DNA of 64,000 nt, taken from Hyphomicrobiales bacterium (GTDB lineage: Bacteria > Pseudomonadota > Alphaproteobacteria > Rhizobiales > Xanthobacteraceae). Position numbers and translations under genes: made by a program. Shown here piece by piece: positions 5,858 to 40,893 of the stretch. How positions within the stretch are numbered: position 1 is the first letter of the stretch; every line of letters begins with the position of its first letter. A model generated the notes under the pieces. The model searched no databases. It had not been told where the DNA came from and saw nothing but the letters and a program-made list of their open reading frames with translations. The stretch covers positions 186,001 through 250,000 of the forward strand of contig JAFKKN010000005.1 of assembly GCA_017305535.1 (NCBI GenBank), read 5' to 3'.

Positions 5858-6670
5858 ATGTCCAGCGCCTTCATTCAAGCCGCGATCATCCTTCTGCGCG
5901 AGGGACTGGAAGCGATGCTCGTGATCGCGGCGCTTGCGGCCTATCTGACCAAGGCCGGTGGCGGCCATCGCGTGAAATCGCTCTATGCTGGCGCGCTTGC
6001 GGCAGTCGGTGTCAGCATCGTCGCGGCGTGGTTGTTTGCCGTGCTCAATTCGGGCCAGCACAGCGATCTGATGGAAGGCGTCATCATCCTGTTTGCCGCC
6101 GCGCTGATGCTTTATGTCTCGGGCTGGCTGATGGTGAAACAGGATCCGCACGGCTGGAAGGAATATCTCGCCGCCAAAGCCGACAATGCGTTGGCGCAGG
6201 ATACCGCGTGGGCCGTGGCGGCGCTTGCGTTTCTCGCCGTGTTCCGCGAGGGGGCAGAGACCGTGCTCTTCATCAATGCGCTCGCGACTACCGAAGGCGG
6301 CTGGAGCGTTGGTTTGTTCGGTGGCCTTGCCGCGGCGACGCTCGGGCTCGCGGTGCTGTTCTACTTCATCAACCTGATCGCGCAGAAAATCCCGCTGCGG
6401 CCGTTATTCATCATTACCTCGGCGTTCCTGTTCGCAATGGCGATCAAGTTCATCGGCGAGGCAGTGCAGGAATTTCAGGAGCAATCGATCCTGCCGTTCA
6501 CGCAGGTCGCGGGCGCGGATTGGCTGGCTGCTATCGGCCTCAATCCCACGGTTGAGGCGCTGTCGCTCCAGCTGCTGGTGATCCTGTTCGCGCTCGCGAC
6601 CTATTCACTGGTGGTACGCAACAATCGCCTGACGCGAGTGGATAAGGCCGCACGGGCAGGGAAGGCGTAG
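5858..6670 (+). CDS. FTR1-family iron permease
   Basis: A 270-aa inner-membrane protein of the FTR1/EfeU family with about seven helices. Both signature iron-binding motifs are present: REGLE at residues 14-18 and REGAE at 130-134. These families move ferric iron after oxidation by a partner. No EfeO, EfeB or multicopper oxidase gene lies nearby, so the partner is either elsewhere or not needed. It lies 168 bp downstream of ctaA in the same direction, so an iron/heme link is plausible, but co-transcription is unproven. Confidence 0.9.
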   Translation: MSSAFIQAAIILLREGLEAMLVIAALAAYLTKAGGGHRVKSLYAGALAAVGVSIVAAWLFAVLNSGQHSDLMEGVIILFAAALMLYVSGWLMVKQDPHGWKEYLAAKADNALAQDTAWAVAALAFLAVFREGAETVLFINALATTEGGWSVGLFGGLAAATLGLAVLFYFINLIAQKIPLRPLFIITSAFLFAMAIKFIGEAVQEFQEQSILPFTQVAGADWLAAIGLNPTVEALSLQLLVILFALATYSLVVRNNRLTRVDKAARAGKA

Positions 6671-6695
6671 AGACAGAGACCAGCACTAGGTGATC

Positions 6696-6965
6696 CGTCA
6701 TGCCCGGGCATGGCGGTTCGAAGAACGGCGTGGCTTCGCTCGCCCGTAGCCGTTCGAAGAACGGCGTCGCTTCGCTCGCCCGTAGCCGTTCGAAGAACGG
6801 CGTCGCTTCGCTCGCCCGTAGCCGTTCGAAGAACGGCGTCGCTTCGCTCGCCCGTAGCCGTTCGAAGAACGGCGTCGCTTCGCTCGCCTATGACCCGACC
6901 ATCCACGCCTTGTTCATGGACTCTCCGCGAAGACGTGAATGCCCGCGACAAGCGCGGGCATGACG
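6696..6965. repeat. Family A palindromic element carrying a tandem array
   Basis: The only content of the 349-bp gap between the FTR1 gene and the PanE-like gene. Outer arms read CGTCATGCCCGGG on the left and GCGGGCATGACG on the right. Inside are five head-to-tail copies of a 36-bp unit. The right part keeps the CATCCACG and AAGACGTG blocks shared with other family A copies at 12406, 15844, 37887, 40783 and 52842. Confidence 0.85.
6713..6890. repeat. Five-fold 36-bp tandem repeat
   Basis: Units start at 6713, 6749, 6785, 6821 and 6857; the last is truncated to about 33 bp. Each unit begins GCCGTTCGAAGAACGGC, which is itself a near-perfect hairpin (CCGTTC-GAA-GAACGG), and continues GTCGCTTCGCTCGCCCGTA. 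The first unit differs by two bases and units 2-5 are identical apart from the truncated end, which indicates recent expansion. A single unit occurs at the equivalent place in the elements at 12406 and 15844. Because 36 is a multiple of three, several frames stay open, but nothing supports translation. Confidence 0.9.
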
Positions 6966-7019
6966 ATCTGGAGCGTCGGCCTTATTACAAAATGCTCGTC
7001 GCACCTGATCGGCAAAGGC

Positions 7020-7940
7020 TCACACCCGCTGCGCCTCATACGTTTTCAAATGCGCATAGGCCACGCGCAGGCGCGGTACGTCGATCTTCGCGGCGGCGGC
7101 GCGCGCGACCAGGTCGCCAACGATGTGATCGGCCTCGATCGGCAGGTTGCCCTGAATGTCGCGGAACATCGAGGCGGTGAAGGGTGACCCCTCGGTGGTC
7201 AGCATCGCGGTGATGCGCTCGATAAACGGCGCGCGCGGGTTGTGGCCGGCGGCGCTGGCGATGGCGCGGATTTCGTCGCGCACGCCGAGGATGTAATCGC
7301 GGCCACCCGGCGCTGCGAGAATCTTGCCGACCGGCCCGCGCATCAGGCAGGTCGAGCAGGCGAGCGTCGCCAGCAGCGTCCACTTCTCCCACATGTCCTG
7401 CACGATGGTGCTCGAAGCCTTGCCGTCGAAGTTGCCGCGCTGGAAAATGGCGTCGGCCTGGCGCACGCGGTCCGATAGGCTGCCGTCGCGTTCGCCGAAG
7501 CCGAGTGCCTGCATCGGTGACAACTGAACCACATGGCGGTCGGCGTTCAACGTTGCGGCGATGGAGCATTGCCCGCCCAGCACGTGTGCGTGGCCGAATT
7601 TGGAATCGAGCACCTCGAGATGACGCATGCCGTTCAGCATCGGCATGATCGCGGTCTGCGATCCGACTGCGGGCGCGATGGAGGCGATGGCGTCGTCGAG
7701 ATCGAACGCCTTGCAGGTCAGGAGCACGATATCGAAGGATTGTTTCAAATCCTGCGCCAGCACCGTCGGCGGCTTCGGCAGGGTGATATCGCCGTGCGGG
7801 CTCTTGATGACGAGGCCGTCGCGGGCCAATTCCTCGGCACGGCGCGGTCGCACCAGAAACGTCACGTCCGCGCCGGATTGCAGCAATCTTCCGCCGAAAT
7901 AGCCGCCGATTGCGCCGGCGCCGAGGACCAGAATGCGCAT
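7020..7940 (-). CDS. 2-dehydropantoate 2-reductase (PanE/ApbA) family protein
   Basis: A 306-aa NADPH-dependent oxidoreductase. The N-terminal Rossmann motif is GAGAIGGYFGGRL (residues 7-19). The conserved TCKAFD lysine, the LNGM block and the KWTLLATL lysine/helix region match ketopantoate reductases, which make pantoate for coenzyme A synthesis. Alphaproteobacteria carry several PanE-like paralogues, so the true substrate is uncertain. The ATG at 7940 has GGGAG 8 bases upstream. An SDR gene lies 73 bp upstream on the same strand, so the two may be co-transcribed. Confidence 0.85.
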   Translation of the reverse strand: MRILVLGAGAIGGYFGGRLLQSGADVTFLVRPRRAEELARDGLVIKSPHGDITLPKPPTVLAQDLKQSFDIVLLTCKAFDLDDAIASIAPAVGSQTAIMPMLNGMRHLEVLDSKFGHAHVLGGQCSIAATLNADRHVVQLSPMQALGFGERDGSLSDRVRQADAIFQRGNFDGKASSTIVQDMWEKWTLLATLACSTCLMRGPVGKILAAPGGRDYILGVRDEIRAIASAAGHNPRAPFIERITAMLTTEGSPFTASMFRDIQGNLPIEADHIVGDLVARAAAAKIDVPRLRVAYAHLKTYEAQRV

Positions 7941-12405: not shown

Positions 12406-12531
12406 CGTCATGCCCGCGGATAGCCGTTCGAAGAACGGCGGCGCTTTGCTCGCCTATGTCGCGGGCATCCACGTCCTTACAAACGGTCGGCAAAAAAGAC
12501 GTGGATGGCCGGGACAAGCCCGGCCATGACG
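12406..12531. repeat. Family A palindromic element with one 36-bp-type unit
   Basis: Arms CGTCATGCCCGCGG and GGCCGGGACAAGCCCGGCCATGACG are present. The internal pair is CATCCACGTC and GACGTGGATG. One copy of the CCGTTCGAAGAACGG unit begins at 12423, in the position where the 6.7-kb element has five. It lies between the convergent GST and gamma-glutamyltransferase genes. Confidence 0.85.
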
Positions 12532-15843: not shown

Positions 15844-15968
15844 CGTCATACCTGTGCATCGCCGTTCGAAGAACGGCGTCGCCTCGCTCACCTATGTCAC
15901 GGGCATCCACGTCTTTGCAGCGGCTCATCCGGAAAGACGTGGATGGCCGGGACGAGCCCGGCCATGAC
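15844..15968. repeat. Family A palindromic element with one 36-bp-type unit
   Basis: A copy between the convergent MFS and purH genes. The single CCGTTCGAAGAACGG unit starts at 15861. It is followed by CGGGCATCCACGTC, its partner GACGTGGATG, and the right arm GGCCGGGACGAGCCCGGCC. The layout is the same as the 12406 copy, with scattered substitutions in the left arm. Confidence 0.85.
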
Positions 15969-15988
15969 AACTGGAGAAGCTATTTCTC

Positions 15989-17581: not shown

Positions 17582-17697
17582 GGCTGTGGTTCCTGGGGGA
17601 TTTTATGGCCGTCGGGTAGCACGGTTTGACAGTCGACGGAACCACATTGGGCGATTTCGCCCCTGAATTTGTCACCTGCCTCGATAGTACAACCGCT

Positions 17698-17770
17698 GTC
17701 ATGCGCGGACTTGATCCGCGCATCCATCTTTTGAAGAGGATGGATTGCCGGGTCGAGCCCGGCAATGACG
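17698..17770. repeat. Short family A-like palindromic element
   Basis: The arms are GTCATGCGCGGACTTGATCC and GGGTCGAGCCCGGCAATGACG. The internal pair is CATCCATC and GATGGATTG. It is diverged from the main family and lacks the 36-bp unit. It lies in the gap between the CitE-like gene and purH. Confidence 0.7.
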
Positions 17771-37886: not shown

Positions 37887-37971
37887 CGTCATCACCGGGC
37901 TTGTCCCGGTGATCCACGTCTTTATTCCTGCATCAAAATCGTGGATGGCCGGGACGAGCCCGGCCATGACG
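37887..37971. repeat. Family A palindromic element
   Basis: Arms CGTCATCACCGGGCTTGTCC and GGCCGGGACGAGCCCGGCC plus ATGACG. The internal CCACGTC pairs with the ATCGTGG block. The 36-bp unit is absent. It lies between the convergent methyltransferase and argG genes. Confidence 0.8.
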
Positions 37972-40782: not shown

Positions 40783-40893
40783 CGTCATGCCCGGGCAAAA
40801 GCGCGACTTCGCGCTTGCAGTCCCGGGTATCCACGTCTTTCTTGTTTCGTTGTGTGCAAGACGTGGATGGCCGGAACAAGTCCGGCCATGACG
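40783..40893. repeat. Family A palindromic element, variant core
   Basis: Arms CGTCATGCCCGGGC and GGCCGGAACAAGTCCGGCC plus ATGACG. The internal pair is ATCCACGTCTT and AAGACGTGGAT. Where other copies have the CCGTTCGAAGAACGG unit, this copy has AAAAGCGCGACTTCGCGCTT, another hairpin. It lies between rlmN and the membrane protein gene. Confidence 0.8.

Follow-up and report, generated by a model that had tools for sequence, protein, structure and literature searches.

The locus and its features

The window is a stretch of 64,000 nucleotides (G000:C4:186001-250000) from a genome, hereafter G000, assembled as 15 contigs totalling 4.73 Mb. Between an iron permease gene and a ketopantoate reductase gene lies a palindromic element that contains an array of short repeats, and two related elements with a single repeat unit are found further along the window. 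The features are listed below.

5858-6670 (+): iron permease gene, Pfam FTR1
6696-6905 (+): CGTC-REP no. 1 of a head-head dimer, from the sequence and the arm test
6696-6699: CGTC tag of REP no. 1, from the sequence
6700-6708: left arm of REP no. 1, ATGCCCGGG, from the sequence
6716-6888 (+): chimeric array of five direct 29-nt unit cores, at 6716, 6752, 6788, 6824 and 6860
6894-6902: right arm of REP no. 1, CCCGACCAT, from the sequence
6903-6905: CCA tail of REP no. 1, from the sequence
6906-6935: dimer spacer, resembling in alignment the spacer of the panE-cytochrome c REP dimers in the relatives G002, G003 and G006
6936-6965 (-): CGTC-REP no. 2 of the dimer, with empty loop CTTGT, 9-bp stem ATGCCCGCG and tail TCA
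7020-7940 (-): ketopantoate reductase gene, Pfam ApbA/PanE (panE)
12406-12471 (+): CGTC-REP with one unit (12426-12454) in its loop; partner REP at 12502-12531 (-), loop CTTGT
15844-15909 (+): CGTC-REP with one unit (15864-15892) in its loop; partner REP at 15940-15969 (-), loop CTCGT

The initial annotation had described five direct 36-bp units inside a palindromic element, and this description was confirmed. Tandem Repeats Finder reported 6716-6888 as a tandem repeat with a period of 36, 4.8 copies and 99% matches, the 29-base unit core was found seven times in the window at up to 3 mismatches (0 in 100 shuffles), and the element edges at 6696 and 6965 were exact, with inverted 20-nt arms that are 85% complementary. 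Four of the array cores are exact and one carries a single mismatch, with CGTA at all four joints. The single copies at 12426 and 15864 each show 2 mismatches to the core and do sit at the same internal position as the array, in the REP loops at 12406 and 15844. The array is covered by open frames, one of 156 aa on the plus strand and one of 116 aa on the minus strand; their array peptide is the translated repeat and nothing else pointed to a gene, and a coding gene was rejected.

A CGTC-REP dimer encloses the array

The enclosing element belongs to a published class, the CGTC-tagged REPs, two of which form a head-head dimer here. Nine canonical CGTC-tagged hairpins (9-bp stem, 5-nt loop) were found in the window, including the minus-strand partners at 6936, 12502 and 15940, each of which forms a dimer with one of the three unit-bearing hairpins. 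The window partner REPs have 9-bp stems, and the filled REPs retain the stem. The 4-5-nt loop of the class is seen in the partner REP at 6936-6965 (CTTGT), while the loop of a filled REP holds the unit or units; the CCA tail is present at 6903-6905, with TCA in the oppositely oriented partner. It was also noted that unit-free REP dimers lie at 17697-17770 and 37887-37971, and further single canonical REPs at 40864 and 52841.

In the passages of Di Nocera et al. 2013 (PMC3733652) that describe CGTC-REPs, the shared features are the CGTC tag, a 9-bp stem starting AT, the 5-nt loop of the partner, the CCA tail, the head-head dimer, a location at gene 3' ends and no dedicated transposase. The elements described here differ from those passages in that the filled loop is 41 nt or longer, the unit also occurs without a REP, and tandem arrays are formed, whereas clusters and head-tail dimers are rare or negligible there.

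This arrangement extends across the genome. CGTCAT (up to 1 mismatch) was found within 22 nt of the unit in 64 of the 74 unit-bearing elements of G000, the other 10 being degenerate at the tag or, in one case (L005), cut by a contig end. In 69 of the 72 testable elements (two of the 74 have no flank at a contig end) at least 7 of the 9 arm positions beside the unit are paired, and in 64 of 72 at least 8, with a shuffled mean of 6.1. For 40 loci of other genomes, chosen among the matches listed in the family search, the counts were 39 and 33 (shuffled mean 3.3). In REP no. 1 itself the array occupies the loop and the arms pair 7/9. Across the 62 single-unit G000 elements, 94.1% of the stem cells are paired, compared with 33-42% when the structure is slid, and 37 double-change cells were counted against 9.7 in shuffles (0 of 500 shuffles as high). 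Pairs that show a two-sided change numbered 7, no more than in slid structures (5-9). The covariation supports a REP stem around the unit.

Form and abundance of the unit

The unit has a body of about 34 bp between AT dinucleotides, and its ends read CATAG..CTATG. Inside it one hairpin is clear and a second is possible. Terminal inverted repeats (CATAG/CTATG) of the kind expected of a MITE are present at most sites and span only about 5 bp. AT stands on both sides of the unit and none of the 77 empty loops collected below contains ATG or CAT; the flanking AT..AT could be a 2-bp duplication or part of the element. Of 62 single G000 copies, 37 read CATAGCC and 3 have GTAG, which occurs chiefly at array joints.

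The hairpin CCGTTC-GAA-GAACGG, proposed earlier as the fold of each unit, does form, but its stability is not exceptional against shuffles. Folding z-scores were -1.65 for the array as RNA (14 of 200 shuffles equally good) and -1.26 for the 40-nt unit as DNA (20 of 200). In its typed consensus forms, a single REP gave -4.81 when its loop held the unit and -4.98 when it was empty, each with 0 of 200 shuffles as good. The unit's own hairpins are weakly tested in G000 because few pairs inside the unit vary; a two-sided change (GTCCGAAGGAC for GTTCGAAGAAC) was found in the arrays of G184 and the units of G024.

G000 contains 97 units at up to 3 mismatches (reversed control, 0), and refetching the places of these matches at up to 5 mismatches gave 98 units in 74 elements. 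One unit is present in 62 elements, two in 5, three in 3, four in 3 and five in 1. At up to 2 mismatches the unit was found in 74 of the 296 family genomes drawn and in 15 of 47 genera. The 40-mer had no match in INPHARED or PLSDB, nor the 73-mer in PLSDB, and exact-pattern scans of IMG/VR returned four contigs in total, with the unit in REP-like stems in three. Four strings of the unit or its peptide were not found in the paper texts searched, which did not extend to subscription journals and supplements.

Occupied and empty REP loops

The 77 empty REP loops comprise CTTGT (37), CTTGA (14), TTTAT (12), CTCGT (7) and others, and come from the window and G000 loci chosen around units (271,073 bases with overlaps). 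In filled REPs with ATGGCC/ATGCCC stems the loop ends in GT in 36 of 40 cases, and the commonest empty loop of these stems is CTTGT; in filled ATTGCC REPs it ends in GA in 6 of 10, where the empty loops are CTTGA/CTCGA, only 4 having been seen. The filled consensus loop is 41 nt long against 5 nt when empty, a difference of +36.

Occupancy also differs between orthologous sites, as was directly observed in relatives several of which are metagenome assemblies. A REP dimer with a similar spacer is common to the panE side of four genomes (G000, G002, G003 and G006). Both of its loops are empty in G002 and G006; in G003 one unit lies in the panE-proximal REP loop, as an exact 36-column gap with one substitution beside it; and in G000 the panE-proximal loop is empty and the array lies in the other REP. 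The other panE orthologues carry no unit, with a different REP pair in G007, a TTGCGAG-type repeat in G001 and nothing of the kind in G005, and in G004 no panE orthologue passed the search. Downstream of FTR1, where G000 is filled, the unit is missing from the REP dimers of G002 and G003 and from the degenerate pair of G007. Copy number at orthologous REPs thus varies among relatives between none, one and an array, as the initial annotation had suggested it might. The same annotation had treated the unit as an integral part of the element that was amplified here; the comparison argues instead for an insertion in the REP loop, and the unit is also present outside REPs.

The occupancy pattern may fit repeated insertion and gene conversion among REPs after a first insertion alike, with loss of units as another option. 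One alternative weighed is that the unit is a long-loop CGTC-REP subtype, inherited or spread only with REPs or by gene conversion of loops, and not mobile by itself. It agrees with the finding that nearly all copies lie in REP-like stems (the 69 of 72 and 39 of 40 loci at 7 or more pairs), identical units in diverged stems fit gene conversion, and Bradyrhizobium CGTC-1 loops of other length and composition are mentioned in the relevant passage of Di Nocera 2013 (PMC3733652). However, two REP stem types have each kept their own residual loop bases, the G003 REP is filled where its orthologues in G000, G002 and G006 are empty, and units are also present within two genes, one of a phage and one for an aldo/keto reductase, and elsewhere outside REPs. 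We consider this alternative unlikely.

Units outside CGTC-REPs

Two in-frame gains of 36 bp within genes were directly observed. In the viral contig L239 an in-frame unit lies in a phage scaffolding-protein gene, whose product is 42% identical to its counterpart in Pseudanabaena phage Pam5. The unit is absent from 8 of 8 relatives in a DNA alignment that left out L343, L348, L350, L352-L354 and the self-hit L340; five of the eight lack exactly 36 nt, and the three more distant ones have 12 other bases at the unit site. In the genome G080, an aldo/keto reductase (PF00248; site L381) has 12 extra residues in frame from the unit, and both homologues above the cut-off (61% and 51% identity) are without them. 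Both gene insertions were compared with diverged homologues, not with strains. At 36 bp, each copy amounts to 12 whole codons, so that a gene can keep its frame across an insertion.

G080 holds 181 copies of the unit. Of 65 distinct sites examined among the matches listed, 35 lie in a different CGTC-REP (CGTCATTGCGAG..GAAGCAATCCAG), 3 were scored as CCGGG-type and 27 as other, by a rough scoring in which the L381 insertion itself fell in the CCGGG class and several "other" sites are next to degenerate units or belong to additional repeat families. Most of the non-REP sites are from this one genome (27 of 65 by the rough rule). A preference for hairpins outside REPs was not significant (mean stem 2.96 vs 2.62; p = 0.06; 25 sites), so the hairpin at the joined L239 site was not used as evidence.

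Several further contexts were noted in G080. L362, L374, L408 and L410 belong to a repeat of about 530-710 bp in matching length, 79-89% identical and present in at least 4 copies, with one unit each. L372, L401, L424 and L427 form another repeat family, in which the matches span 128-177 bp at 84-93% identity and the unit holds a constant internal position. At L358/L291 (C1:176.8 kb) four units lie upstream of a gene, inside its extended open frame; we take its product to be aspartate carbamoyltransferase-like. Two units at L383 lie in a 592-codon frame, just before or within an apparent signal peptide.

Tandem arrays

Arrays with a 36-bp period recur, as was directly observed in four genera including that of the window. 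A search of the genome for other arrays, proposed in the initial annotation, found them inside contigs at nine other G000 elements, eight with 36-bp spacing. All tandem spacings in G000 are 36 except for a single one of 31 bp, and fifty arrays in seven genomes, counted among the loci fetched and distinguished by their downstream flank, gave 86 of 97 spacings at 36, the next being 37 (6). Because many of these loci were found by tandem-pair searches, the set is uninformative on how frequent arrays are. Of the 8 genus genomes 4 have tandem pairs, as do 3 of 13 further genomes, one genus each, that were picked mainly for their counts.

Of 47 pairs of neighbouring joints within an array 31 agree, where 14.8 were expected (0 of 2000 in the null), and in one G151 array the joints alternate CATA, TATA, CATA, TATA. 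The likeness of neighbouring joints and this alternation argue that copies multiply in place.

A junction of two loci at the window array

The adjacency of FTR1 and panE in the window (6671-7019) conflicts with the gene order in relatives. In three of them (G002, G003 and G007) FTR1 is followed by a REP or REP-like pair and then by a Cys/Met-metabolism PLP-enzyme gene (Pfam), presumably an O-acetylhomoserine sulfhydrylase. In G002, G003 and G006, panE is followed by a REP dimer and then by the gene that in G000 is a cytochrome c gene (Pfam). In G000 the PLP enzyme has its best match (87%) at C9:219-1496, next to an array that the C9 start truncates (L005). The G000 cytochrome c gene is found where contig C15 ends, and the adjoining array is likewise truncated by that contig end (L282).

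The flanks are chimeric, as was directly observed. Each arm of REP no. 1 pairs 9/9 with an arm at the end of another contig (the left arm at FTR1 with the right arm at C9, the panE-side arm with the left arm at C15), whereas the assembled combination and its reciprocal each pair 7/9. With units omitted, over about 200 aligned bases, the FTR1/PLP-enzyme combination aligns best to the relatives' FTR1 loci (71-72%) and the cytochrome c/panE combination to the G002 panE locus (74%); the assembled FTR1/panE combination reaches less, 59-68%. The window array joins halves of two loci, FTR1-array-PLP enzyme and cytochrome c-array-panE. We lean to a misassembly of the junction, since both leftover ends are contig ends, and regard a real array-mediated rearrangement as the lesser but still substantial possibility. 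The copy number at the window is unreliable on either account, misassembly or recombination. The earlier deduction that near-identical copies indicate recent amplification does not follow at this locus, the array being chimeric.

A collapse by assembly, with long reads expected to show a single unit, had been named beforehand as the artefact to exclude. The problem found is of another kind, a chimeric junction of two arrays. That the five-copy array is wholly an assembly artefact could be suspected from the joined flanks of two loci and from the two other contigs that end inside arrays. Yet both broken contig ends carry units of their own (at least 3 and at least 4), arrays lie within contigs at the nine other G000 elements, and tandem copies occur in six other genomes, which leaves a wholly artefactual array very unlikely. 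The contig ends at C41 (end), C25 (start) and C30 (start) of G080 were also noted to fall within or near units, as in G000, and unit arrays seem to break assemblies. Arrays flag unreliable assembly spots in the family, and real rearrangements may happen there.

Gene context and possible host function

Gene context was assessed for 72 of the 74 G000 elements from simple codon-usage gene calls, not annotation. Elements lie between convergent genes in 44 cases and between co-directional genes in 24, with 1 divergent, 1 inside a frame (L267) and 2 at contig ends. The 728-codon frame at L267 was judged to be an antisense shadow and was not counted as an insertion. The two elements outside the 72, the single copies at 12426 and 15864, lie between convergent frames. 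As a baseline, the window has 38 intergenic regions that reach 100 bp or more, 15 divergent, 14 co-directional and 9 convergent, and unit elements avoid divergent regions (1/69 vs 15/38; Fisher exact test; p = 2.5e-7). No clear strand preference relative to transcription was found (13 same, 11 opposite).

We assessed whether the array might be a functional hairpin ladder under selection, acting in transcription end, as an mRNA stabiliser or as a protein-binding array. The shortage of divergent sites and the covariation that maintains the REP stem would suit such a role, and a passage of PMC5082802 reports transcription of REPs that lie in 3' untranslated regions of Bradyrhizobium japonicum. 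The positional bias is, however, reported for REPs generally where PMC3733652 treats their location, 62 of 74 elements have one unit only, orthologous loci have no unit, no T-run terminator is present, and the strand counts show no clear preference. A selected hairpin ladder is very unlikely on these observations. No terminator-like or promoter-like site was found in 6500-7100, and the one Rfam match in 6400-7200 is below the gathering score and outside the element; a terminator or small RNA was rejected as a candidate. The role at mRNA ends that had been suggested earlier finds no backing in the terminator scan of 6500-7100 or in the strand counts. A host function is not needed for the explanation that follows.

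Mobility of the unit and relation to known elements

We consider it probable that the unit is a small mobile palindrome, residing mostly in CGTC-REP loops and multiplying in tandem, and that the window array is a junction of two loci. The unit would move independently of the REP, with a net gain of 36 bp per copy. A hairpin-forming fragment would enter exposed loops by a transposition-like insertion, the reaction type and the action on exposed loops both being our inference. Once placed, it would multiply in the same orientation with a period of 36, probably by slippage or unequal crossing-over. The result would be a small minisatellite at which chromosomes may recombine and assemblies break, and the window array would be one such site, joining the FTR1-array-PLP-enzyme and cytochrome c-array-panE loci. 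More tentatively, and as a serious possibility, the 36-bp palindrome may move alone through a reaction favouring single-stranded hairpin loops, as a REP parasite nested in another repeat family. If so, the unit would be among the smallest mobile elements that could be proposed, and an occupied loop could receive or generate further copies.

The array joint CGTAG had suggested a GTAG foot, and a GTAG-REP/RAYT system was considered. It was rejected because most single copies read CATAG and because a RAYT-type Y1_Tnp transposase (PF01797) is absent from 8 of 8 genus genomes, in a profile search for PF01797 only; among 14 reference genomes used as a control, 5 have the domain.

BIME-2 and mycobacterial MIRU-VNTR arrays are interspersed short repeats with tandem multiplication and variable copy number; the unit array differs in being mostly confined to the loop of another palindrome. 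Each half of the unit's behaviour has precedent, since REPs are targeted by insertion sequences and RPEs (Rickettsia palindromic elements) enter genes in frame. REPs are described as insertion targets of IS1397, IS621 and ISPpu9/10 in a passage of PMC1525189, and the REP hairpin as a target is shared with the unit, but these are full insertion sequences with a transposase and the unit is 36 bp. RPEs are described as inserting in frame into genes in passages of PMC10969869. Like them the unit is a short palindrome found in frame in unrelated genes (here two); it is likened by description, not sequence, and is 36 bp long instead of about 150 bp. Nesting in REP loops is not described in those RPE passages. 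No prior description of a 36-bp element nested in REP loops was found in keyword literature searches by title and abstract, with subscription journals and supplements outside their scope.

Two layers can be told apart within one palindrome, a known REP dimer and a smaller element in its loop. With occupied and empty orthologous REPs, and with gene insertions of fixed size, the movement of so small an element can be tested directly. By eye, GCGAGCGAAGCGAC (reverse strand of the unit, second half of the core) resembles the loop region of TTGCGAG-type REPs, which may hint at the origin of the unit.
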